From Lebetimonas natsushimae (lineage in GTDB: Bacteria > Campylobacterota > Campylobacteria > Campylobacterales > Nautiliaceae), in NCBI RefSeq assembly GCF_002335445.1, contig NZ_BDME01000002.1, positions 124,001-188,000 of the forward strand: 64,000 nucleotides of DNA. Direction: 5' to 3'. Below the pieces are notes generated by a model. It was given only the letters and a program-made list of their open reading frames with translations. It was not told the DNA's origin and ran no database searches. Of this stretch, positions 1 to 57,192 are shown in pieces. Numbering within the stretch: the first letter of the stretch is position 1; every line of letters starts with the position of its first letter. A program made the position numbers and the translations under genes.

Positions 1-2051
1 TCAATCCCGAATTTAAAAATAAAAAATTTTATTTAGTTATTGATGTTAAAGATTTTTATCAAATAAAAAGTTTCAACGAACATCTATATGAAAATGCGTT
101 GATTAACCCTTTTAAAATAAAAAAAGCAAAAAAATGGGTTATTATCGCTTCTAATAAAAAAATAATCGCCCCTGGTGATAATAACGGACTCAAGTTTTAT
201 TTTATACATTCCCCAAAACCGTATGTTGGTGCGATAGACGATAATGGAAATCCAATTGAGGAAAATAGTGAAAGTGAAGATGTAATAAAATATTTTGAAA
301 TAATAAATGCCTATAAACATCACAGAGATGTTAGTATGGAAATAGAAAATTTTATACAAAATTATCCGAATTCGGTTTTTTTACCCGATATTTTATTTTT
401 AAAATTACAGATTTTAGATAAAAAAAATGATTCAAGTGATGTTATAAGTCTGGCTAAAATCTGGATTAAAAAATTTGCGTATGATGAAAATTTGCCAAAA
501 GTATTATTATTAATGGCTAAAAATTATTCAAAAATAGGATTTTTGAGTGATGCAGCCTATTTGTATCAAAGAATAATAAATGAATATCCTAAAAGTAAAG
601 AGGCATATTTAGCCATGATATATTTGGCGGATCAGCTCTATACAACAGGTGATGATAAAAAAGCTTTTGAATTTTATAAAAAAGCTCTTTATTCCACAGA
701 TGATATTGATATAGCTTCCCTTGCTGCAAGCAGACTGGCCCAGAGATATATGGACAAAGGAAATATTAAAAAAGCAATAAAATATTATATGAAAATATAT
801 AATGCAAATAAAAAATATTTATTAAAAGACAAATATAAAGCTTACGAGCTGGCTAAAATGCTTGCAAGTCACAATGGATATGAACTGGCTGTAAAAATAG
901 GTGAGGATTTGATAAAAAAATTAAAAAAACTTGATGATTTATATGAACCGCTAGAATACAGTTTGGCAAATTGGTATTATGAAATGCAAAACTATAAAAA
1001 GGCTCTTTATTGGATAGAGAGATATTTAAACGAATTTCCTTACGGGGATTATTCTGATGCGTTGATGGCGCTTAGGGATAAAGTTATTTTTGAAGTACCG
1101 GATCATAATGTAACAAAGCAGCTTCAGGTAATTGATGAAATATTGCAGAAATACAAAGGGACTATTGCATATAAAGCTTTGTATAAAAAAGTGATGTTAC
1201 TTTATAAATTAAAAAAATATGGAGAAATTTTAAAACTTGAAGATAAAATTCGGGAAATTCCGGATAAAATCTTTAAAAATAAAAAAGAGTTTTTAAATAA
1301 AATATATAAAGAATATGCAACTACGCTTTTAAAACAGAAAAAATGTTTTGATGCAATTAATTTGATAAAGTCCAAAAAATTGGTTTTAGATAAAAAATAT
1401 GATGAGGAAATTTATAATTGTGCAATTAAAGTAAAAGCGTATAATATAGCCTCTGTTGTTTGCAATAAATATCTGGATTCCCCGGATGAGAGGCTTTTTA
1501 TAAAATGGATGAAAAGAAAAATAAAGGCTCTTGAAGGACTTAGGGATTATAAAAATTTAATTTTGGCTGTAGATGATTTGTGCAGTGTAATGAAAAAAGG
1601 ATGTTATGAGTATAAATTAAAAAAATTTTTTGCTCTTTGGAAACTTAAAAGATATAAAGAGGCTTTGGCTTTGGCAAAAGAACTTGATAAAGTAAAAGAT
1701 ATCAGAAACACAGATGCTTTTATTAAAATAATTAATTATGCCCTTAAAAACAATAATAATCTTTTGGCTGCCACATATGCTAAAAAAATTATTAATCTGC
1801 AAAACAGATTCAGGGCATATCCTTACTCTCCTTTTGTGGAATTTACTTATGCTAAATTTACTCAAAATAAAAAAGACGCTGTAAAAGTTTTAAAGGATGT
1901 ATTAAACAGGGTAAAAGGTGAAAATAAGGCAAGGGCATATTTTATGCTTGCAAATCTTACAAAAAACAAAAAATATATTGAAAAATGCCTGCAAGTTAAA
2001 GATTCAAAACTCTGGCGAGGGCTCTGCATGGATGCTAAAGACCTCTTTTAA
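1..2051 (+). CDS. TPR-repeat protein, PflA-like (5' partial)
   Basis: The frame is open to the left edge (codons from base 3), so the start lies outside the window. The visible part (about 683 residues) is almost entirely helical TPR/Sel1-like repeats (for example AYLYQRIINEYPKSKEAYLA, AFEFYKKALY), with lysine-rich linkers and no transmembrane segment. Length, repeat content and the C-terminal end (LWRGLCMDAKDLF) recall PflA, the periplasmic TPR scaffold of the epsilonproteobacterial flagellar motor that helps hold the stator ring. That name is from memory of the family. A generic outer-membrane-associated TPR protein is the alternative. It converges on miaA across a hairpin. Confidence 0.55.
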   Translation, partial: NPEFKNKKFYLVIDVKDFYQIKSFNEHLYENALINPFKIKKAKKWVIIASNKKIIAPGDNNGLKFYFIHSPKPYVGAIDDNGNPIEENSESEDVIKYFEIINAYKHHRDVSMEIENFIQNYPNSVFLPDILFLKLQILDKKNDSSDVISLAKIWIKKFAYDENLPKVLLLMAKNYSKIGFLSDAAYLYQRIINEYPKSKEAYLAMIYLADQLYTTGDDKKAFEFYKKALYSTDDIDIASLAASRLAQRYMDKGNIKKAIKYYMKIYNANKKYLLKDKYKAYELAKMLASHNGYELAVKIGEDLIKKLKKLDDLYEPLEYSLANWYYEMQNYKKALYWIERYLNEFPYGDYSDALMALRDKVIFEVPDHNVTKQLQVIDEILQKYKGTIAYKALYKKVMLLYKLKKYGEILKLEDKIREIPDKIFKNKKEFLNKIYKEYATTLLKQKKCFDAINLIKSKKLVLDKKYDEEIYNCAIKVKAYNIASVVCNKYLDSPDERLFIKWMKRKIKALEGLRDYKNLILAVDDLCSVMKKGCYEYKLKKFFALWKLKRYKEALALAKELDKVKDIRNTDAFIKIINYALKNNNNLLAATYAKKIINLQNRFRAYPYSPFVEFTYAKFTQNKKDAVKVLKDVLNRVKGENKARAYFMLANLTKNKKYIEKCLQVKDSKLWRGLCMDAKDLF

Positions 2052-2053
2052 TG

Positions 2054-2099
2054 TAGAATGGATAATTGATAATACGAATAAAAAGAATTATCCGTTCTA
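2054..2099. terminator. Bidirectional hairpin between converging genes (heptad-type repeat)
   Basis: TAGAATGGATAATT (2054-2067) pairs with AATTATCCGTTCTA (2086-2099): 14 positions with one G-U wobble and an 18-base loop. It lies just after the PflA-like stop and overlaps the last codon of miaA, so it probably terminates both transcripts. Its sequence belongs to the AATGNNN island family seen elsewhere in the window. Confidence 0.6.
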
Positions 2100-2957
2100 T
2101 ATTTTACATTTTCTGTTTAGAATAATGTTTTCAAGCTTTTTTAGTGGGGCAGAAATTTTATTTGGAAACTGGGTTTTGTTGAAAATCTGCTGTCTTTTTG
2201 CAAGTCTTGCCGTATTTGTAACAATTTTTTCATAAAGCTCTTCTTTAGAATAAATTCCGTTAAAATAATCAAGCACTTCTTTTACGCCTATGGCTTTAAG
2301 GGCGGGCAGTCTTCTGTCACGGTATTTATGTTCAAGATATGCAACTTCGTCAATAAGCCCTTTTTCCAGCATTTTTTTGGTTCTTAATTTTATTCTCTCT
2401 CTTAAAGTTTGTCTGTCAATTTCTATTTCAAAAATAGGCAGGTTTTCAATTACAGGAACCGGGGGATTTTGTTTAAAATATTCAGTAGGCGACATTTTAG
2501 TTGCAAGATAAATTTCCAATCCTTTTTGAATTCTGTATGTGTCGTTTGGTGAAATTTTTGCTGCATAAACAGGGTCTGTTTTTTGTAAATCTTGAAAACT
2601 TAGTTTTTTAGCTTCTTTTTTTATTTCTTCACTTATAAGGGGCATTTTGGAAATTCCGGAAATCATAGTTTTTAGATAAAAGCTGGTGCCTCCCACAATT
2701 ATTATATTTTTGTGAGGGATTTTTTTGTAAATTTCTATAAATTTCATTACATCAAATTTTTCATTAGGATAAATTTCATTTATTCCGTAATGTTTAACCA
2801 TTTTTAATTCTTCAATGCTCGGCTTTGCAGAAGCTATGTCTATTTCTTTGTAAATGCTTAAACTGTCAAGCGAGAGGATTTCATAATTTAATTTCTTAGC
2901 TAATTTTATCGCCAAATCGCTTTTTCCTGAAGCTGTGGGGCCAATTAAAGCAAACAA
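2097..2957 (-). CDS. miaA: tRNA dimethylallyltransferase MiaA
   Basis: 286 residues, normal to slightly short for the family. It transfers the dimethylallyl group from DMAPP to N6 of A37 in tRNAs reading UNN codons. The N-terminal P-loop is GPTASGKSDLA. The substrate Asp region SLDSLSIYKEIDIASAKPS and the IIIVGGTSFYLK motif are canonical. The start is TTG at 2957, directly before FALIGPTASGKS; no better ATG precedes the P-loop. The last residues (RKCKI) are read from sequence like the AAAATGTAAAAT heptad islands, suggesting a repeat-derived tail. It is divergent from the prenyltransferase. Confidence 0.93.
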   Translation of the reverse strand: MFALIGPTASGKSDLAIKLAKKLNYEILSLDSLSIYKEIDIASAKPSIEELKMVKHYGINEIYPNEKFDVMKFIEIYKKIPHKNIIIVGGTSFYLKTMISGISKMPLISEEIKKEAKKLSFQDLQKTDPVYAAKISPNDTYRIQKGLEIYLATKMSPTEYFKQNPPVPVIENLPIFEIEIDRQTLRERIKLRTKKMLEKGLIDEVAYLEHKYRDRRLPALKAIGVKEVLDYFNGIYSKEELYEKIVTNTARLAKRQQIFNKTQFPNKISAPLKKLENIILNRKCKI

Positions 2958-5784: not shown

Positions 5785-5795
5785 GTGACAGACAC
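5785..5795. repeat. Extragenic palindrome, AGTGTCAGACACT family
   Basis: GTGACAGACAC, a one-mismatch member of the recurrent short palindrome also present near 28640, 40346, 55755 and 57180. It lies between rpsI and the patatin gene, beside a heptad island. Confidence 0.45.
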
Positions 5796-5806
5796 ATAAT
5801 TAATTA

Positions 5807-5922
5807 AAAATTGATAATGGAAAATGTAAAATATTAATATATAATATCATTTATAAGAAATGTAAAATAAATTTAATAAATTAAAAATTTTTCATTCTTA
5901 ATTTTTCATTTTACATTATTTT
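5807..5922. repeat. AATGNNN heptad island in inverted orientation
   Basis: The left arm begins at 5811 with TTGATAATGGAAAATGTAAA. The right arm near 5890-5922 contains TTTTTCATTTTACATTAT, the reverse complement type. The arms could form a long imperfect hairpin between rpsI and the patatin gene. The interior is nearly all A/T and shows no other feature. Confidence 0.55.
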
Positions 5923-5933
5923 AAAGGGGTGTT

Positions 5934-6782
5934 ATGAAAATATCTTTGGTTTTAAGCGGCGGGGGTGCCAGGGGTTATACACATATAGGTGTTATCAAGG
6001 AATTAAAAAAAGAGGGGTTTAAAATAATTTCAATAGCAGGTACTTCTATGGGTGCTTTAATAGGAGCACTTGAAGCGTGCGGTAAGCTCGAAATATATGA
6101 AAACTGGGTTACAAATCTTGATGTAATGGATATGCTGCAATTTTTAAATAATCCTTTTTCTAAAAACGGGTGGCTTAACAGTGATAAAATATTTAATAAA
6201 ATAAAAGAATTGGTAGGAGATTATAAAATAGAAGATTTACCTATTAAATTTACAGCGGTTGCAACTGATCTAAATAAGAAAAAAGAAGTTTGGTTTCAAA
6301 AAGGCCCTTTGTGGGATGCTGTAAAAGCTTCCGCTTCAATTCCTGGTATTTTTTCTCCCGTAAAATTGAATAATATGTTATTGGTTGACGGAGGAGTGCT
6401 TAATCTAATGCCGGTGGCACCTGTTATGAGTGACATGAGTGATTTAATTATAGCAGTTAATTTATATGGTAGTGATAAAGATATAAAAATAAAACTTTCT
6501 AAAGAAGTTAAAAAAAAGCAGAATTTAATGGAAAATATATGGAGTAAAATTTTTAAAGAAAAACAAGACCCGGTCAATCAGTCAATTGATTTGATGATGG
6601 ATACTATTTTTAGATACAGAAGAGCGGAATATACTCCTGATATAGAAATAGAAATACCGGAAACTATTGCTAAATGGTATGAATTCCACAGAGCTATAGA
6701 ACTGATTAAAATAGGAGAGGAATTTGCTAAAGAAGCTATAAAAAATGCTAAAAACAAAGGAATAATAACATTGAAAAATTGA
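5934..6782 (+). CDS. Patatin-like phospholipase (RssA/NTE family)
   Basis: 282 residues. The oxyanion-hole motif GGGARG is at residues 9-14, the nucleophile serine is in GTSMG (about residue 40), and the catalytic aspartate is in DGG (about residue 150), so the Ser-Asp dyad is complete. A basic C-terminal helical region follows. There is no signal peptide, so it is probably a cytoplasmic or membrane-associated lipid acyl hydrolase; the substrate cannot be told. ATG at 5934 follows AAAGGGG. Its stop is followed by another short heptad island. Confidence 0.85.
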
Positions 6783-6812
6783 TAATGGAAAAAGTAAAAT
6801 TAATGATATAAT
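6778..6812 (+). promoter_or_regulatory. ridA promoter next to a heptad island
   Basis: A short island (TTGATAATGGAAAAAGTAAA from 6779) runs into a -10 hexamer TATAAT at 6807-6812. This is 20 bases upstream of the ridA GTG, leaving space for AAGGAG at 6821-6826. Confidence 0.5.
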
Positions 6813-8137: not shown

Positions 8138-9199
8138 TTGTTTGTTGATAATGTAAAATTAACCGTAAAATCTGGAAAAGGCGGTGCCGGGTGTGTAAGT
8201 TTCAGACGTGAAAAATTTATACCAAAAGGCGGACCTGACGGAGGAGACGGCGGAAAAGGCGGAGATGTAATAGTAGTATGTGATAAAAATACACATACTC
8301 TCTCGCATTTTAAAGGTAAGCGTGTTTTAAAGGCAAAAAACGGAAGACCAGGTGAAGGCAGAAAAAAACATGGGGCTGACGGAGAGGATTTAATTATTAA
8401 AGTACCGCCAGGTACTGTAATAAAAGATGCAAATACAGGCGAAATTTTGCTTGATATGAAAGAAGACGGGGAAAGAAAAGTTTTGCTTGAAGGCGGAAGA
8501 GGAGGACTTGGAAACTGGCATTTTAGAGGCCCAAGACAGCAGCTTCCAAGATACGCACAGCCGGGTGAGGAAGGAAAAGAGCTTGAAATTGTAATGGAAC
8601 TTAAATTAATTGCGGATGTCGGGCTTGTAGGTTTTCCAAATGCCGGAAAATCCACTTTAATTTCAACCCTATCAAACGCAAGACCCGAAATTGCAAACTA
8701 TGAATTTACAACTATTACCCCAAAACTCGGGGTTGTAAAGGTAGATGAATTTAGAAGTTTTGTAATGGCGGATATTCCCGGTATTATTGAAGGGGCTCAC
8801 GAAGGAAAAGGGTTAGGGTTAAAGTTTTTAAGACATATAGAAAGAACAAAAGTAATCCTTTATATGATAGATATGGCATCACACAGAGACCCTTATTATC
8901 AGTTTGAAACGTTAAAAAAAGAGCTTAAAAACTACTCCGTTAAACTTGCCAATAGAAAATATGCAATAGCCCTTACAAAGGCCGATGCGGTGGAAAAAGA
9001 AAAAATAGAAGAATTTTTTAAAAAAATGGGAATCAAACCTACAGAGCCTAAATATAAGGCAAGCCTTGATTATCCGTGTTATTTTGGAAAAGATACATTT
9101 ATTTTACCTATAAGTGCAGTAAGTAATATAAATATTGAACCGCTTAAATATGCTTTGATGAATTTGGTAGAAAGTGTAAAAGATGAGAATAGTATTTAA
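8138..9199 (+). CDS. obgE: GTPase ObgE/CgtA
   Basis: 353 residues. The N-terminal Gly-rich Obg domain (residues 1-158, for example [17 protein letters not shown]) is followed by a G domain with G1 [11 protein letters not shown]3 [17 protein letters not shown]4 TKAD and a SAVSN G5 motif. It is an essential ribosome-assembly and stress GTPase. The start is TTG at 8138 after AAAAAGG; no in-frame ATG lies near. The 3' end overlaps proB by 17 bases, so proB is coupled to it. Confidence 0.95.
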
Positions 9200-9992
9200 A
9201 GTCGGAACCGCCACCTTATATGAAAACGGCAGGTTATCCGATAGAATAGATAAAATTGTTGAATTGTTATCCGAACTTAATAAAAATCATGAAATTATTT
9301 TAGTCTCTTCCGGGGCAGTGGGAGCCGGATATACCAAATGCCCTTTGGATAAAACAAAACTTGAAAACAAACAGGCCCTAGCGGCAATAGGGCAGCCCCT
9401 TTTAATGAGAGAGTATAAAGAGAGGTTTCACAAATATGATATTACAGTGGCTCAGGTTTTAGTCACCGCTGCAGATTTTGATAGCAGAAAAAGAAGTGAA
9501 AATGCTAAAAAAATGATAAATGTTTTACTTGAAAATAATGTAATTCCCATTATTAATGAAAATGACTCGGTTTCAGTTGAAGAGATAATTTTTGGGGATA
9601 ACGACCAGCTTAGTGCCTATGTGACATATTATTTTGATGCCGGTTTGCTTATAATGCTTAGTGACATAGACGCTTTTTATGATGACAATCCTAAAAAAAA
9701 TAAAAATGCAAAACCTATAAAAAAGGTAACCAAAATTAAAGATGAATGGTTGAATGCCGAATGCGACCCAAATGATAAATTTGCAACAGGCGGAATTGTT
9801 ACAAAACTCAAAGCCGCTAAATTTTTAATGGATAAGAATATTCCAATGTATTTAACTAACGGAAACGATTTAAACAGTGTAAGGGAATTTTTAAAAGGTA
9901 ATCATACAAAAGGGACACTTTTTTTTAATGGAGAATTAAAAATGGATAATGGAGAATTAAAGGAAAAAAATGAAAGTGGTTGCAACCAATAG
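9183..9992 (+). CDS. proB: Glutamate 5-kinase (ProB) without PUA domain
   Basis: 269 residues, against about 367 for the two-domain enzyme of E. coli: only the amino-acid-kinase domain is present, as is common in Campylobacterota. Motifs: [53 protein letters not shown]. It makes glutamyl 5-phosphate, the first step to proline. The last 20 or so residues ([14 protein letters not shown] and on) are encoded by an AATGNNN island and look non-native. They repeat NGELK with a seven-residue period and run into smpB (23-base overlap). Confidence 0.93.
9927..9963 (+). repeat. Heptad island inside the proB 3' end
   Basis: AATGGAGAATTAAA occurs twice exactly (9927-9940 and 9948-9961), 21 bases apart (three heptads, seven codons). 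It encodes the C-terminal tail of ProB, and its GGAG/AAAGG bases lie where the smpB Shine-Dalgarno should be. Confidence 0.75.
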
Positions 9993-16412: not shown

Positions 16413-16437
16413 ATTATCTCCTTAATGCAGAATTGAA

Positions 16438-16495
16438 AATGGAGAATGTAAAATTAAATATGAGTTTATAAATTATCCATTTTACATTGTCCATT
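16438..16495. repeat. Heptad-island hairpin between glnK and amt
   Basis: AATGGAGAATGTAAAAT (16438-16454) pairs with ATTTTACATTGTCCATT (16479-16495), 16 of 17 positions, with a 24-base loop. As part of the glnK-amt transcript it could attenuate amt or set its stability relative to glnK. Confidence 0.7.
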
Positions 16496-16504
16496 ATCCA
16501 TTAA

Positions 16505-20569: not shown

Positions 20570-23011
20570 ATGTATTCAGGAATTACTGTTATTAAAAGAA
20601 ACGGCAGAAGAGAATTACTTGATATTTCTAAAATTAGAAAATATACTATGGCTGCATGCCAAGGCCTTGAAGGCGTTGATTATAGCGAACTTGAGCTTGA
20701 TGCGAAACTTCAATTTAGAGACGGAATTACAACTGAGGAGATACAACAAACTCTTATAAAAACCGCAGTTGATAAAATAGATATAGACAGGCCTAATTGG
20801 AACTACGTAGCGGCAAGATTGTTTCTATATGACTTATATCATAAAGTTACAGGGTTTACTGGATATAATCATTTAAGGGAATATTTTGAAAAAGGTGAAG
20901 AAGCCGGAAGAATACTTCCCGGACTCAAGGAAAAATATGATTTGGATGAGTTAAATGACTATCTTAAACCCGAGAGGGATCTGCAGTTTACATATCTTGG
21001 AATAAAAACACTTTATGACAGATATATTATTAAAGACAGGGACAATAATCCAATAGAGCTTCCTCAGCAGCTTTTTATGGGTGTTGCTATGTTTTTAGCT
21101 CAAAATGAAACAAATCCTGAGAGTATTCCTCAAGAAGATAGGGATAAAATAGACTTAAACGACCCTAAATCAATAAGAGGATATTGGGCTAAAAAGTTTT
21201 ATGATGTAATTTCAAAATTTGAGGTAATGGTTGCTACCCCAACTCTTTCTAATGCAAGAACTACAAGGCATCAGCTAAGCTCTTGTTATGTTGGAAGTAT
21301 GAATGATAATATCGAGGGAATTTTTGATGATTTTAAAGAAATGGCACTTCTGAGTAAATATGGTGGAGGAATTGGCTGGGATGTAAGTAAAATTAGAGCC
21401 CTTGGAAGTTTTATAGACAATCACAAAAATGCAGCCGGAGGTGTAATTCCTTGGCTTAAAATTACAAATGATATTGCAATTGCAGTGGACCAGCTTGGGA
21501 CCAGAAAAGGAGCGATTGCCGTATATCTTGAACCCTGGCATATGGATATAATGGACTTTTTGGATTTAAAGAAAAATTCAGGGGAAGAAAGACGCAGGGC
21601 TCACGATTTATTCCCGGCTTTATGGATTCCCGATTTGTTTATGAAAAGAGTTTTAAATGATGAACTCTGGACTCTTTTTGATCCGTATGAGACAAAAGAT
21701 TTAACGGATTTATACGGGGAAGAGTTTGAAAAAAAATATATCGAATATGAAAACGACCCAAACATTACAAAAGAAAAAATAAAAGCAAAAGAACTTTGGA
21801 AAAAAATACTTCTTGAATATTATGAAACAGGAAATCCTTTTCTTTGCTTTAAAGACAATGCAAACAGACGCAATCAAAATTCTCATACGGGAATTATAAG
21901 AAGTAGTAATCTTTGTACTGAAATTTTCCAAAATACCGAGCCAAACCATTATAAAGTAAAAGTTACATTTGAAGATGACAGTTTTATATTTTTTGAAGAA
22001 GAGGAAGAAGTAAAAGTTGAAAGCGGGGGAGTAGAAGTAATTAAAAAAGCTAAAAAAATAACATCTCTTGATTCAATAGACGGTAAAAGGGTTTATATTG
22101 TAGAAAAAGTGGCAGTTGGCGGGAAAACAGCTGTTTGTAACCTTGCAAGTGTTAATTTAAGTAAAGTAAACACTCCGGAAAAAATAGCTGAAGTTATCCC
22201 TATTGCCATTAGAATGCTTGATAATGTAATTGATTTAAATTATTATCCTGTCAGAAAAACAAAAGATACAAACCTTAAAAACAGAGCAATAGGGCTTGGG
22301 GCTATGGGTGAAGCCCAAATGCTGGCGGAAAAACAGATTTTCTGGGGAAGCGACAAGCATTTAAAACTTATAGATGAAATATTTGAAGGAATAAGCTATC
22401 ATGCAATTAATGCAAGCTGTGACTTGGCAAGGGAAAAAGGAACTTATCCTGAGTTTGAGGGCAGCAGATGGTCAAAAGGAATACTTCCAATTGATACGGC
22501 TAATGAAGAAGCAAAGAGACTGGTTGAGAGAGATTTGTTCTCAGCTATGCAGTATGATTGGGAAGGACTAAGGGAAAAAGTAAAAAAAGGAATTAGAAAC
22601 GGATATTTAATGGCAATTGCACCGACAAGTTCAATTTCTATTCTTACAGGTACCACTCAGACAATAGAGCCGGTTTATAAAAGAAAATGGTATGAGGAAA
22701 ATCTAAGCGGGCTTATTCCTGTGGTTGTACCTAATTTAAGTGCCGATACATATATGTTTTATACACCGGCTTATGAGCTTGACCAAAGAGTTTTGGTAAA
22801 AGCCGCAGCAATCAGACAAAAATGGATAGACCAGGGTCAAAGTCTGAATATTTTCATTACAACAGATAAAGCAAGCGGAAAATATCTGCATGAAATATAT
22901 ACTCTTGGATGGAAACTTGGAATTAAAAGTTTTTATTATTTAAGAAGCCAGTCTCCTGAAATCAAAGAAGATGTAATGGATAGAAGTATTGAATGTTTTG
23001 GATGCCAGTAA
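20570..23011 (+). CDS. nrdA: Ribonucleoside-diphosphate reductase alpha subunit (class Ia)
   Basis: 813 residues from ATG 20570 (AAAGGAG upstream); the open frame continues to a TTG at 20516 but lacks a ribosome site there. An ATP-cone is at residues 1-90. Active-site cysteines are in HQLSSCYVG, the radical-cysteine motif SSNLCTEI and TAVCNLASVNLS. The C-terminal CFGC pair is the reductant shuttle. About 60 residues (from NHYKVKVTFEDD to VEKVAVGGK) are inserted between the radical cysteine and the AVCNLAS cysteine. Similar inserts are, from memory, found in other Campylobacterota NrdA. It makes deoxynucleotides with NrdB. Confidence 0.95.
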   Translation: MYSGITVIKRNGRRELLDISKIRKYTMAACQGLEGVDYSELELDAKLQFRDGITTEEIQQTLIKTAVDKIDIDRPNWNYVAARLFLYDLYHKVTGFTGYNHLREYFEKGEEAGRILPGLKEKYDLDELNDYLKPERDLQFTYLGIKTLYDRYIIKDRDNNPIELPQQLFMGVAMFLAQNETNPESIPQEDRDKIDLNDPKSIRGYWAKKFYDVISKFEVMVATPTLSNARTTRHQLSSCYVGSMNDNIEGIFDDFKEMALLSKYGGGIGWDVSKIRALGSFIDNHKNAAGGVIPWLKITNDIAIAVDQLGTRKGAIAVYLEPWHMDIMDFLDLKKNSGEERRRAHDLFPALWIPDLFMKRVLNDELWTLFDPYETKDLTDLYGEEFEKKYIEYENDPNITKEKIKAKELWKKILLEYYETGNPFLCFKDNANRRNQNSHTGIIRSSNLCTEIFQNTEPNHYKVKVTFEDDSFIFFEEEEEVKVESGGVEVIKKAKKITSLDSIDGKRVYIVEKVAVGGKTAVCNLASVNLSKVNTPEKIAEVIPIAIRMLDNVIDLNYYPVRKTKDTNLKNRAIGLGAMGEAQMLAEKQIFWGSDKHLKLIDEIFEGISYHAINASCDLAREKGTYPEFEGSRWSKGILPIDTANEEAKRLVERDLFSAMQYDWEGLREKVKKGIRNGYLMAIAPTSSISILTGTTQTIEPVYKRKWYEENLSGLIPVVVPNLSADTYMFYTPAYELDQRVLVKAAAIRQKWIDQGQSLNIFITTDKASGKYLHEIYTLGWKLGIKSFYYLRSQSPEIKEDVMDRSIECFGCQ

Positions 23012-23012
23012 T

Positions 23013-23050
23013 AATTAAAAATTGAAAATGGATAATGAAAAATGAAAAAC
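23013..23050 (+). repeat. Heptad island between nrdA and nrdB
   Basis: Just after the nrdA stop, AATGGAT AATGAAA AATGAAA runs in register. The rest of the 131-base gap is AT-rich and carries the nrdB Shine-Dalgarno AAGGAG near 23131. Confidence 0.6.
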
Positions 23051-25253: not shown

Positions 25254-25823
25254 ATGCAAATTATAAATTTTAATGAAATAGAAAGTACTCAAAGATATAA
25301 ATTGATGTCTGGTAATATTGTTCCTCGTCCCGTTGCCTGGATAGTTACTGAAAATAACAGATTTATAAATTTAGCTCCTTTTAGTTATTTTACCGGGATA
25401 TCAAGCGTGCCTCCACTTTTGATGGTAAGTATAGGCAGGAATAAAAAGGGTCTTAACGAACCCAAAGATACTTTTAAAAACATCAAAGAAACCAAAAAAG
25501 CGACTGTCTGTTTAGTGCCTGTTGAACTTGCTGAAAAAATGGACAGAACCGGTGAAGTTTTACCTTATGGTGAAAGTGAAGCTGAGAGATTTGAAATTGA
25601 ACTTGAGAGGATTGATGAAAATTTTCCTCCAATAGTTAAAGGATGCAAAAGGGCTTTTTTAACTACTTTATACGGAACTTTTGAAAAAGATGAAATGGCT
25701 ACAATCCCGTTTTTTTTGAAAATTGAAAAAATGTATATTGGAGGTGATTTTGAACCTGTTGCACGGGTCGGCAAAGGGTATGCAAGGCTTTGTGAAATGG
25801 AGAATGAAAAATGGAAAATGTAA
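25254..25823 (+). CDS. Flavin reductase-like FMN-binding protein
   Basis: 189 residues, split-barrel flavin-binding fold: MSGNIVPRPVAWIVT, NLAPFSYFTGISSVPPLLMV, GRNKKGLNEPKDTFKNI, and CKRAFLTTLYGTF. It is close to flavoredoxin/NADH-FMN reductase proteins; partner and substrate are unknown. The last residues (MENEKWKM) are encoded by perfect AATGNNN heptads, which also provide the stop codon. It overlaps the FAH gene by 13 bases. Confidence 0.85.
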   Translation: MQIINFNEIESTQRYKLMSGNIVPRPVAWIVTENNRFINLAPFSYFTGISSVPPLLMVSIGRNKKGLNEPKDTFKNIKETKKATVCLVPVELAEKMDRTGEVLPYGESEAERFEIELERIDENFPPIVKGCKRAFLTTLYGTFEKDEMATIPFFLKIEKMYIGGDFEPVARVGKGYARLCEMENEKWKM

Positions 25824-25826
25824 AAT
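25796..25826 (+). repeat. Perfect AATGNNN heptad island at a gene junction
   Basis: Four heptads in register, AATGGAG, AATGAAA, AATGGAA and AATGTAA, then AAT. They encode the tail and stop of the flavin reductase. They also provide GGAG (25799-25802) as Shine-Dalgarno and the ATG (25811) of the FAH-family gene. Confidence 0.8.
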
Positions 25827-26434
25827 TTAGAACGCTTAAATTTGAAAATAGAAAAATAATTCCCTGTAAAATTGTATGTGTAGGCAGAAATTACGTAGCA
25901 CATATTGAAGAGCTGAATAATGAATTACCGAGTGAACCGGTTTATTTTATAAAATCTAACAGTGCAATCGGGGATGAATTAAAAATTGTTGATTATTCTC
26001 CTACCCATTATGAGGGTGAAATTTGTTTTTTGATTGAAAATAAGCAAATTGTAGGGGTCGGATTTGGGTTTGATTTGACACTGAGGGAGATTCAAAGCAG
26101 ATTAAAGCAAAAAGGGCTTCCCTGGGAGAGGGCAAAAGCGTTTAAAAATTCAGTAGTTTTCAGTGAATTTATATCAATTGATGATATAGATGATTTAGGT
26201 ATTGAAGTATATAAAAACGGGGAGCTTGTTCAAAAAGGTGATGTTTCTTTGATGATTTATAAACCTGAATTTTTAGTTAAAGATATTGATAAAATTTTCG
26301 GGCTTGATGACGGGGATATTATAATGAGCGGAACTCCCAAAGGTGTTGGAGTTATAAACAAAGGCGATAAATTTATAGGCAAAATTTTAAAAAATAAAGA
26401 GGTTTTAATTGAAAAAGAATTTGTATGTAGTTGA
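25811..26434 (+). CDS. Fumarylacetoacetate hydrolase family protein
   Basis: 207 residues, one FAH domain: CVGRNYVAHIEEL, the metal-binding acidic residues in YEGEICFLIE and later GFDLTLREIQSRLKQKG, and GDIIMSGTPKGVGVI. Related enzymes hydrolyse acylpyruvates or decarboxylate oxaloacetate, so a housekeeping role on oxaloacetate tautomers is plausible. Start and ribosome site come from the heptad island. It overlaps queE by 26 bases. Confidence 0.88.
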   Translation: MENVKFRTLKFENRKIIPCKIVCVGRNYVAHIEELNNELPSEPVYFIKSNSAIGDELKIVDYSPTHYEGEICFLIENKQIVGVGFGFDLTLREIQSRLKQKGLPWERAKAFKNSVVFSEFISIDDIDDLGIEVYKNGELVQKGDVSLMIYKPEFLVKDIDKIFGLDDGDIIMSGTPKGVGVINKGDKFIGKILKNKEVLIEKEFVCS

Positions 26435-40193: not shown

Positions 40194-40200
40194 TCCATCG

Positions 40201-40294
40201 TCCCAGCCCTGTGCAAGGGGTGTAAGAGGCAACGCTTCAGGCCCGGAAGGGAGCAGAGCACCTCTTATGCCCCTGTGCCGCAGGTTCCTGGGGC
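40201..40294 (+). ncRNA. ffs: Signal recognition particle RNA (4.5S)
   Basis: About 94 bases. The Ffh-binding apical hairpin contains CAGGCCCGGAAGGGAGCAG with the GGAA-type tetraloop region and symmetric/asymmetric loops. Flanks (AAGGGGTGTAAGAGG with CCTCTTATGCCCCTG, and TCCCAG with CTGGGG) close a single rod, so this is the small bacterial type without an Alu domain. Ends are approximate. Confidence 0.93.
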
Positions 40295-40692
40295 ACCTAA
40301 AGAAAAATGATTAATTAAAATGTAAAATACGGGTTTTTTATAAAAAGTGTTTGACACTATATAATGTAAAATGATGGTTTTATAATTTTTATTAACGAAA
40401 TAAAAACAGTTTTTAGTTTAATGTTTTATAAAATTAAGATTTTGACTAAAATAATATAAAATACCACAGCTTGGTAATTCATTGTGTTAAAGCGTCAAAA
40501 TTTTATTAAAAATTGCAAACGGCTGTGCGGTATGGTAGATTAAATGCAAATTTTTTAATGCAAAAATTTTTTAAATTCCTCAATGCGTAATATTTTTTTA
40601 TTTAATTGGTTTCAGTCATAATTAAAATAAAATAATAGAATATTTATGTTGTTGGTGTCAGGGATTTTTTTAAAATTAACAGAGAAAAGGAA
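40295..40692. other. Longest gene-free stretch (398 bases)
   Basis: No open frame of note. Contents seen: a heptad-like AAAATGTAAAAT at 40317; the perfect palindrome AGTGT-TTG-ACACT at 40346-40358 followed by TATAAT; a possible stem joining ATACCACAGC (40461-40470) to GCTGTGCGGTAT (40522-40533); twin ATGCAAA/TTTTTT blocks at 40543-40575; and a half palindrome GGTGTCAGGG at 40653. The higher local GC at 40460-40535 suggests a structured RNA or a relic, not identified. Confidence 0.4.
40346..40358. repeat. Perfect extragenic palindrome AGTGT-TTG-ACACT
   Basis: Five-base arms around TTG. Member of the family with consensus near AGTGTCAGACACT. Confidence 0.55.
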
Positions 40693-43702: not shown

Positions 43703-44344
43703 ATGCTAAAAGCAGTAAATCTTAAACATTCATTTGATTATCTTCTATTTTCCGATGTTAATTTAGAAGTAAAGCCAAAAGAAAAAATTGCAATAATTGG
43801 CACGAGCGGCAGTGGAAAATCTACACTGCTTCATATTCTTTCATCTTTTTTAAAACCAAATACAGGAAAAGTTTTTATCGATAATAAAGAAATTTATAAA
43901 TTAAAAGAAAAAGATTTGATTGAATTTCGTAAAAATAAAATAGGTATCATTTTTCAGTTTCACTATCTTTTCAATACTTTTACAGCGCTTGAAAATATCC
44001 AGGCAGCTGCAATTTTAAGTAACAGAGAAGTTGATTATGATTTGCTTGAGAGACTTAAAATAAAAGATGTTATAAATCAAAATATCCAAACCTTAAGCGG
44101 AGGTCAGCAGCAGAGGGTCAGTATTGCAAGGGTTCTGACTAAAAAACCTAAAATTATATTTGCAGATGAACCTACCGGGAATTTAGACAGTGTTAATGCC
44201 AATGAGGTAATAGATATTTTAAAAGAATATGCCGATGAAAACTGTGCATCAATTATAACAGTAACTCATGATATAGAAATTGCAAAAAAATTTGATAAAA
44301 TTTATGAGTTGAAAAATAAAAAACTAACACTTTTTAATGGGTAA
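43703..44344 (+). CDS. ABC transporter ATP-binding protein (LolD/FtsE-like)
   Basis: 213 residues, one nucleotide-binding domain: Walker A GTSGSGKST, Q-loop FQFHYLF, signature LSGGQQQR, Walker B IIFADEPTGN, switch THD. It is closest by eye to LolD/MacB-type ATPases, whose permease would be elsewhere; none is adjacent. From memory the same gene sits between tsf and fliR in C. jejuni (Cj1180c). The last codons (FNG) run into a heptad island that supplies the stop. Confidence 0.88.
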   Translation: MLKAVNLKHSFDYLLFSDVNLEVKPKEKIAIIGTSGSGKSTLLHILSSFLKPNTGKVFIDNKEIYKLKEKDLIEFRKNKIGIIFQFHYLFNTFTALENIQAAAILSNREVDYDLLERLKIKDVINQNIQTLSGGQQQRVSIARVLTKKPKIIFADEPTGNLDSVNANEVIDILKEYADENCASIITVTHDIEIAKKFDKIYELKNKKLTLFNG

Positions 44345-44452
44345 TGGAGAATGGATAATGGAGAATAAAAAATATAAAATTGAAAATAGGAAATTGTGTT
44401 ATAAATTTTTTAAATTAATTAATTTTCCATTTTTCATTATCCATTTTCCATT
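44343..44452. repeat. Long heptad-island hairpin between ABC gene and fliR
   Basis: Arm 44343-44366 (AATGGAG AATGGAT AATGGAG AAT) pairs with arm 44429-44452 at about 21 of 24 positions, with an AT-rich loop of 62 bases. This is the largest member of the family in the window. It fills nearly the whole gap and probably ends the ABC transcript or insulates fliR. Confidence 0.75.
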
Positions 44453-50573: not shown

Positions 50574-51557
50574 ATGAAGATTGCTATTAATGGAATAGGA
50601 AGAATTGGAAGAAGTATTTTAAGGGTGGCGCTTAAAAAAAATATAGAAATAGTGGCAATAAATGATTTAATGGATATAAAAAGCGCCGCATATTTAATTA
50701 AATATGACACAACCCGCGGAATTTTAAACGAAGAAGTTGAAATAATTGATAAAAATACTTTAAAAGTGGGAGAAAATTTTATTAATTATTCTCAAAAAAC
50801 CATTCCTGCCGAAATACCTTTTGGTGAAGCTGATATAGTTCTTGAGTGTACCGGTAAGTTTTTAAGCAGCGATTTAGCCAAAGGACATTTAAAAGGAAAT
50901 GTAAAAAAAGTTATTCTCTCTGCTCCCGCAAATGATGATACTCCTACATATGTACTTGGTGTTAATCATAAAGATTATAAAGGTGAGAGCATAATTTCAA
51001 ATGCATCATGTACCACAAACTGTCTTGGACCTGTGGCAAAAATAATTGATGAAAAATTTGGAATTGTAAAAGGTTTTATGAGCACAATTCATTCATATAC
51101 AATGGACCAAAAACTTCTTGATGCTCCAAATAATAGGGATATAAGGCGTTCCCGTGCGGCGGCTGAAAATATAATACCGACTTTTACCGGGGCTGCAAAA
51201 GCAATTTATAAGGTGCTTCCTAATTTAAAAGGAAGGCTTGACGGTGTAAGTATAAGAGTGCCTGTTGCAAATGTTTCCCTTATGGATTTAACACTTGAAC
51301 TTGAAAAAGATACTACAAAAGAAGAGATAAATGAGCTGATTAAATTTCATTCAATGACTGATTTAAAAGGTATTTTAGAAGTTGATGAAGAATTTAAAGT
51401 AAGCAGTGATATTAATTCAAATCCCGCAAGTAGCATAGTTGCGCCTGATCTTACAAAAGTAAATAAAAATCTTGTTAAAATTTTCAGCTGGTATGATAAC
51501 GAGTGGGGTTATTCAAACAGAATGATTGAAATGGCGGAATATATTTATAAAATGTAA
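50574..51557 (+). CDS. gap: Glyceraldehyde-3-phosphate dehydrogenase, type I
   Basis: 327 residues. Rossmann start NGIGRIGRSILRVAL, catalytic SNASCTTNCLGP, and NEWGYSNRM at the end. Residues of the phosphate sites are present. In autotrophs it probably works toward gluconeogenesis. The final codons AAAATGTAA are followed by AATGAAAAAT, again heptad-like, and the spacer to pgk is 39 bases. Together nadD-rsfS-gap-pgk-tpiA-fabI resembles C. jejuni order (Cj1404-Cj1400c, from memory). Confidence 0.96.
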   Translation: MKIAINGIGRIGRSILRVALKKNIEIVAINDLMDIKSAAYLIKYDTTRGILNEEVEIIDKNTLKVGENFINYSQKTIPAEIPFGEADIVLECTGKFLSSDLAKGHLKGNVKKVILSAPANDDTPTYVLGVNHKDYKGESIISNASCTTNCLGPVAKIIDEKFGIVKGFMSTIHSYTMDQKLLDAPNNRDIRRSRAAAENIIPTFTGAAKAIYKVLPNLKGRLDGVSIRVPVANVSLMDLTLELEKDTTKEEINELIKFHSMTDLKGILEVDEEFKVSSDINSNPASSIVAPDLTKVNKNLVKIFSWYDNEWGYSNRMIEMAEYIYKM

Positions 51558-51596
51558 AATGAAAAATAAATAATTAAATTAAATGAAAGGAGTGAT

Positions 51597-54255: not shown

Positions 54256-54360
54256 GGTAAAAATATATAATGAATATATGGAAAATTGAGAATGAACGAG
54301 AAAATTATTAATAAATTATTAACAACTTTGGAAAATTTTGCAAAAAATTATAAAAAACAT

Positions 54361-57178: not shown

Positions 57179-57192
57179 TAGTGCCAGACACA
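57179..57192. repeat. Extragenic palindrome, GTGCCAGACAC
   Basis: Member of the AGTGTCAGACACT family, one mismatch. In the 194-base gap before the methyltransferase, which otherwise holds AT-rich sequence only. Confidence 0.45.

Follow-up and report, generated by a model that had tools for sequence, protein, structure and literature searches.

Palindromic elements of Rickettsia are dispersed repeats that sit in frame within housekeeping genes. In Nostoc, small dispersed repeats are reportedly nested in heptameric repeats, as Elhai is said to have described in 2008. Many bacteria have an excess of heptanucleotide repeats. Heptads dispersed over gene junctions have been described before (PMC4679880, PMC4692102). 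TAACTGA heptamer repeats are described in Beggiatoaceae, Cyanobacteria, and Bacteroidetes (MacGregor, 2015, PMC4679880). In two related species, the heptamers of Xanthomonas and Nostoc are mostly flanked by the same genes but vary extensively in length and sequence (PMC4692102).

The window analysed here is a 64,000 nt stretch of the Lebetimonas natsushimae genome (1.64 Mb, 30% GC). It displays islands of tandem heptads, mostly at gene junctions (Table 1), which offer a natural case for repeat spread and rewriting. The window and 400 kb of contig C1 together represent 28% of the genome. The relatives are sampled over 1.2 Mb (G001, same genus), 0.8 Mb (G008), and 0.4 Mb (G005). Genes were called by a simple longest-ORF scheme, with uncertain start positions.

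Frequency and arrangement of the arrays

Runs of at least four units of the form AAT[GT]NNN are found nine times in the window; a fifth-order Markov model gives an expectation of 0.07 (sd 0.25). In the entire genome, three consecutive AATKDAN units yield 300 matches (187 forward, 113 reverse) and the reversed pattern yields 0. Period 7 is displayed by 19 regions in the 400 kb of contig C1 and other periods from 3 to 15 by 0–3. The initial annotation gave the unit as AATGNNN, which is corrected here to AATKDAN, but the 7-base pattern itself is, as supposed, far above chance. For the bacterial family the consensus is ARTKDAN, with 3–6 units. The L. natsushimae lexicon, in order of frequency, is AATGGAA > AATGGAT > AATGAAA, AATGTAA > AATTAAA > AATGGAG > AATTGAA. 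There are 63 arrays in 464 kb (contig C1 sample plus window), which extrapolates to about 220 in the genome, or roughly 200 places.

The L. natsushimae arrays are of the AATGGAN type. Arrays carry 3–6 units, with few exceptions. Over the five samples (L. natsushimae, G001, G008, G005), 195 of 251 arrays are situated outside genes and 56 inside open reading frames. Of these 195, gene 3′ ends account for 126 in sense and 14 in antisense orientation. Among the former, 68 include the stop codon and 43 have it no more than 14 nt ahead. The sense to antisense ratio is 141:26 between tandem genes and 48:8 inside genes. Neighbouring arrays on opposite strands are in +− (hairpin) order 18 times and in −+ order once. 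Thus the repeat family proposed from the window is indeed one of gene ends, but its "settling" there is possibly tolerance and not targeting.

Islands of the window

Table 1. Heptad islands and other features. Positions refer to the window, except in the last row.
Feature	Position	Strand	Context
Hairpin island	2050–2110	+	Between convergent ORFs; array 2050–2070 (AATGTAG AATGGAT AATTGAT) and an inverted, degenerate arm (to 2110); stop ending at 2051 overlapped by first base; 18-bp stem, z = −5.89
Hairpin island, + arm	5802–5829	+	3′ of ribosomal protein S9 gene (stop 5750)
Hairpin island, − arm, pairs with 5802–5829	5876–5917	−	5′ of patatin-like ORF (start 5934)
Island	6777–6804	+	Over stop of patatin-like ORF (6782); one imperfect unit
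Island, in frame	9927–9975	+	C-terminus of glutamate 5-kinase-like ORF (9183–9992); codes 17 residues
Hairpin island, + arm	16424–16458	+	Between two − strand ORFs; z = −3.70
Hairpin island, − arm, pairs with 16424–16458	16468–16502	−	Sense to − strand ORF ending 16505; begins just past its stop
Island	23013–23047	+	Directly 3′ of stop at 23011
Island, five units	25796–25830	+	Junction of flavin reductase and FAA hydrolase (FAH)
Small SRP RNA, bacterial (Rfam RF00169, 63 bits)	40200–40297	+	Within long non-coding stretch
Hairpin island, + arm	44336–44363	+	Over stop of ABC transporter ORF (44344); MFE −35.4 kcal/mol, z = −5.25
Hairpin island, − arm, pairs with 44336–44363	44418–44452	−	
Island	51551–51578	+	Over stop of glyceraldehyde-3-phosphate dehydrogenase ORF (51557)
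Weak, out-of-register remnant	54267–54302	+	Called as array by no scan
G001 palindromic element ATGAGCAAAGCGAATTACGCTCATCTGGCTGCTTGAAAAGCGGCCATGATG, examples	C1 750594, 796023, 932272		Loci L092, L094, L141

The island at the flavin reductase/FAH junction consists of five heptads in register, AATGGAG AATGAAA AATGGAA AATGTAA AATTTAG; perfect register had been noted for 25793–25832. The upstream protein is flavin-reductase-like (Pfam PF01613) and its C-terminus (EMENEKWKM), together with the stop codon (25821–25823), is coded by the island. Both the GGAG (25799–25802) and the ATG (25811) of the downstream FAA-hydrolase-like ORF (PF01557) fall inside the same five units. This ATG is the first possible start; from the in-frame stop before it up to the conserved region, the ORF has no other standard start. 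The features ascribed to the island in the initial annotation are confirmed. In RNA folding the island is unstructured. G008 and G005 show heptads with other units at this junction.

The glutamate 5-kinase-like protein (ProB) ends in KGTLFF plus 21 residues in L. natsushimae, and the ORF that follows starts at 9970, inside the island. The G001 protein ends in KGTLFISE, with a GTGARTN array at the site that terminates it at ISE; the repeat-coded residues are not shared with this orthologue. A pseudopilin-like gene has its start region altered after a clean 32-nt insertion. Together with the FAH start, these cases uphold the use of arrays as gene termini and start sites.

The other islands listed initially are real (e.g. 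9927–9961 at ProB), the one exception being 54267–54302, which is weakly periodic. However, several are inverted pairs that fold as hairpins: three of the four pairs in the window fold far better than shuffles (z values in Table 1) and the fourth moderately (z = −1.90). The G001 site that matches 2050–2110 is without an array and the G008 site of 44336–44452 is nearly empty. At 23013–23047, G001 has GTGARTN-type units and G008 AATGGAN units. At the glyceraldehyde-3-phosphate dehydrogenase stop, G001 carries AATGTAA/AATGAAA units. At the site of 16424–16502, G008 displays a period-8 array (TTAAGTAG-like); the same type occurs in G005, at a position orthologous to G008 C1:272923. At both sites a relative has heptads.

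Different words at shared sites

At 71% of 48 aligned L. natsushimae sites, G001 has a period-7 array as well; random stretches give 3%, and periods that are not multiples of 7 give 6% or less. When the same junctions are compared among relatives, presence and absence vary, sites are commonly shared, and the words are often different. The dialects of relatives at shared sites are AGTGAAA, GTGARTN, CAAGTTN, and AATTGAG. For example, G001 units are AGTGAAA-type at the RNase HII, QueH, MurE, and GalE sites and CAAGTTN at the ThiE and RimM sites. The closest pair, G005 and G008, have 81% DNA identity. At one site shared by this pair there are four AATGGAA units in G008 and four AATGGAG units in G005, and at others AGTGAAA is swapped for AATTGAG.

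The unit GTGARTN matches 124 times in G001 and is absent from 21 other genomes, among them L. natsushimae. Comparable GTGARTN loci fall on L. natsushimae AATGGAN arrays in 6 of 17 cases; at array-free control intergenic sites of G001, L. natsushimae has an array in 3 of 62 (p = 0.002). At others of the comparable loci L. natsushimae is without an array, and some are clean insertions. Inserts in filled/empty comparisons are ~24–85 nt and show no consistent target duplication. The word is private to G001 yet present at dozens of loci, and it has therefore spread between loci. Since relatives have sites but not words in common, insertion, rewriting, and slippage can be separated site by site.

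In-frame arrays in enzymes

About ten housekeeping genes carry in-frame arrays in 400 kb of the L. natsushimae genome. These are RNase HII and ThiE-like, QueH-, MurE-, PglB/STT3-, DegT-, GalE-, Dxr-, FolC-, TrxB-, and RimM-like genes, the names being the author's reading save for those with PDB matches. KWKMDNGKLKIKNEK is an example of the heptad-coded peptides in these enzymes. PDB homologues show gaps of 18 (RNase HII), 11 (GalE), and 8 (Dxr) residues at such peptides; with TrxB and MurE the comparison yields a replacement or no clear net insertion. The unit lexicon of arrays inside genes is approximately that of the 3′-end arrays. Because the period is 7, a uniform array reads one cyclic peptide in all three frames. 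In the annotated proteins of these bacteria, peptides such as KWKMENGKWK or KVKSEKLKVK probably derive from repeats. The arrays provide examples of non-coding repeats that turn into start signals, into the ends of proteins, or into in-frame parts of essential enzymes.

In G003, four AATTGAG units (C15:3171–3197, − strand) are found antisense inside dxr (C15:2698–3822, + strand), near the position of the sense array of L. natsushimae. These units may form the − arm of a hairpin.

Distribution

Matches are distributed in patches within the family: next to the L. natsushimae total, there are 127–205 in G001, G002, G005, and G008 and 3–6 in G009, G012, and G014. Within the phylum, 15 of 397 genomes contain four AATKGAN units, and these are chiefly genomes of this family and one other. 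Five AATKGAN units are found, among the matches listed, in Bacteroidota, Cyanobacteria, Clostridia, Acidobacteria, Planctomycetes, Chlorobi, Ignavibacteria, and Deltaproteobacteria, in contigs that, again among the matches listed, have a GC content of 30–65%. The skeleton AANKGAN is common to AATTGAN, AATGGAN, AAGTGAN, and AACTGAN (the last being TAACTGA, PMC4679880), and by their sequence the four may form one family. The initial annotation was incomplete in that it missed this spread far beyond the order, as well as the housekeeping arrays, the other words of relatives, and the species-private word.

Unit order

A slippage signal was not found in L. natsushimae, where 20 adjacent units are identical and 20.8 are expected from random drawing; unit strings are not copied between loci either (7 shared three-unit strings, 9 expected). 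The order looks random. G005 and G008 arrays are homogeneous, with near-identical units inside an array: identical neighbours number 22 against 7.7 expected and 88 against 29.8, the latter figure inflated by one 51-unit array. This homogeneity shows local expansion.

The 51-unit array is a perfect AATTGAG array of 357 bp in G008 (C1:725819–726175, L131), situated between GTGTCAGGCA and TGCCAGACAC. It adjoins a gene that, read on the complementary strand, seems to be rich in glycine/arginine codons.

Origin of the arrays

The arrays are probably dispersed degenerate heptanucleotide repeats of the STRR/TAACTGA kind, newly inserted and rewritten into lineage dialects. What is observed includes insertion where a relative is empty, a private dialect at many loci, differing dialects at one site, additions to enzymes, and stop-anchored sense orientation. 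New arrays would be inserted at many sites and existing arrays rewritten, so that a lineage-specific dialect would come to occupy many, often long-used, sites. Arrays would survive where insertion is cheap, i.e. after the stop between tandem genes, in protein loops, and in hairpins. The purine-rich sense strand could supply SD-like GGAG/GGA, ATG, and TAA/TGA and would encode a hydrophilic K/E/N/M/W peptide; arrays could thereby come to serve as the ends of genes and as signals for their start. Selection may underlie the sense bias.

The favoured guess for copying combines local slippage with short template switches from array to array, the arrays offering 7-nt microhomology in every register. 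The random unit order of L. natsushimae is not predicted by this guess unless tracts are 1–2 units. Copying machinery was not found among the candidates looked at (reverse transcriptase, RAYT-like transposase), and no master element explains the spread. The reverse transcriptase domain RVT_1 has no match in the array-rich G001, G003, G005, G007, and G008, and array writing from a template RNA by such an enzyme is rejected.

Between G005 and G008, unit positions 1, 3, and 6 are changed in 10 of 318 cells, where ~8% is expected after allowing for array choice (p = 0.0002, a rough value since the two comparison directions overlap); flanks differ by 16% and other unit positions by 18%. A core divergence below that of the flanks means either selection on the motif or renewal from a fixed lexicon. 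It hints at the former, and to that extent counts against insertion and rewriting as the preferred view, which does not fully account for the conserved core and the random unit order of L. natsushimae. The conserved core favours an alternative, on the whole unlikely, in which heptads are protein binding sites, probably on mRNA, between cistrons, with dialects that track changes in the protein. Candidates would be CsrA/S1/Csp-like proteins (proposed by MacGregor) or a TRAP-like ring that recognises a periodic motif. The strong sense bias between tandem genes and the presence of ANGGA within AATGGA agree with such sites, but arrays in frame within unrelated enzymes, several dialects in a single genome, nearly empty genomes in the same family, and some clearly decayed arrays do not.

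It is quite unlikely that several phyla share an array-writing process, in which AANKGAN heptads in a lineage dialect would favour tandem-gene stops and old sites, each unit being drawn independently. That such a process would replace the dialect while position, orientation, and frame are kept is equally doubtful. If true, independent drawing of units would be explained by neither slippage nor transposition.

Mobilisation by a transposase is improbable, whether of a MITE or of a REP moved by a RAYT-like Y1 transposase, the heptads forming the body of the element. The inverted +− pairs do fold strongly, a RAYT-like gene is present, the 51-unit G008 array has its two flanking sequences, and palindromic elements are nested within G001 arrays. 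However, most arrays are single and unstructured, and filled/empty comparisons show no consistent duplication of the target site, as a MITE with terminal inverted repeats would have. The GTGNCNGNCAC motif lies close to an array in just 9 of 77 cases, and G009 has Y1 genes despite its 3 array matches. RAYT/REP is rejected as the array carrier: the gene is common among the genomes examined, yet arrays seldom have its apparent motif nearby.

The RAYT-like Y1 transposase ORF (252 aa) of L. natsushimae is found at C1:310132–310890 (L046:10132–10890), just 3′ of a GTGACAGACAC motif. Motifs of the GTGACAGACAC/GTGCCAGACAC type occur twice in the window (5785–5795, 57181–57191) and recur in relatives, and therefore form a candidate REP system of this family. 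The palindromic element ATGAGCAAAGCGAATTACGCTCATCTGGCTGCTTGAAAAGCGGCCATGATG of G001 has 14 strict matches in 1.2 Mb, usually nested in heptad arrays.

Local polymerase slippage at a favoured 7-nt step, independent at each site, is highly improbable as the source of the arrays. Slippage has been proposed as the cause of the heptameric SSRs over-represented in bacteria (cited in PMC4692102), and the homogeneous G005/G008 arrays point the same way, but it cannot account for the recurrence of a few words at hundreds of unlinked sites, for a genome-private word, or for the random unit order of L. natsushimae. Unit order and GTGARTN speak against both slippage alone and master-copy transposition as full accounts. 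Chance or AT-rich composition, to which the low GC of this genome might point, can be dismissed in view of the run counts, the reversed control, the period-7 excess, and the arrays in contigs of 58–65% GC.

Comparison with known systems

Replacement of words at shared sites, invasion of one genome by a private word, and in-frame additions to housekeeping enzymes appear new in combination; they were not found together in the literature searched, a limited search in which the array words gave no match either.

In-frame insertion in conserved genes is a trait held in common with the Rickettsia elements. The latter are longer palindromes; the arrays are single, with only some in hairpin pairs. The palindromic elements inside G001 heptad arrays resemble the nested repeats of Nostoc in arrangement.

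Like the arrays, the cyanobacterial STRRs and the GGGNATC and GGGGA(T/C)T heptamers known in Xanthomonas and Nostoc (PMC4692102) are tandem heptads between genes with convergent inverted pairs. The Xanthomonas/Nostoc repeats are G-rich and quadruplex-forming, whereas the islands are AT-rich, change whole words at shared sites, and include many coding insertions. Tandem 7-nt units in many dispersed, mainly intergenic copies are typical of STRRs and are found here as well, and the STRR parallel, initially called loose, is closer than that.

TAACTGA repeats are closer still. They differ in having one fixed word situated just 5′ of start codons, and in being mostly intergenic; neither site-by-site dialect replacement nor a set of in-frame housekeeping additions is reported in the part of PMC4679880 consulted. 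The direct repeats of L. natsushimae are of AATKDAN and not of TAACTGA, and only the AANKGAN skeleton is common to both. TAACTGA repeats are dispersed heptads (2–6 copies), in sense orientation at gene junctions as found here, often overlapping translation signals and patchy among lineages. Read as AACTGAN, TAACTGA has the AANKGAN form of the AATKGAN arrays described here.
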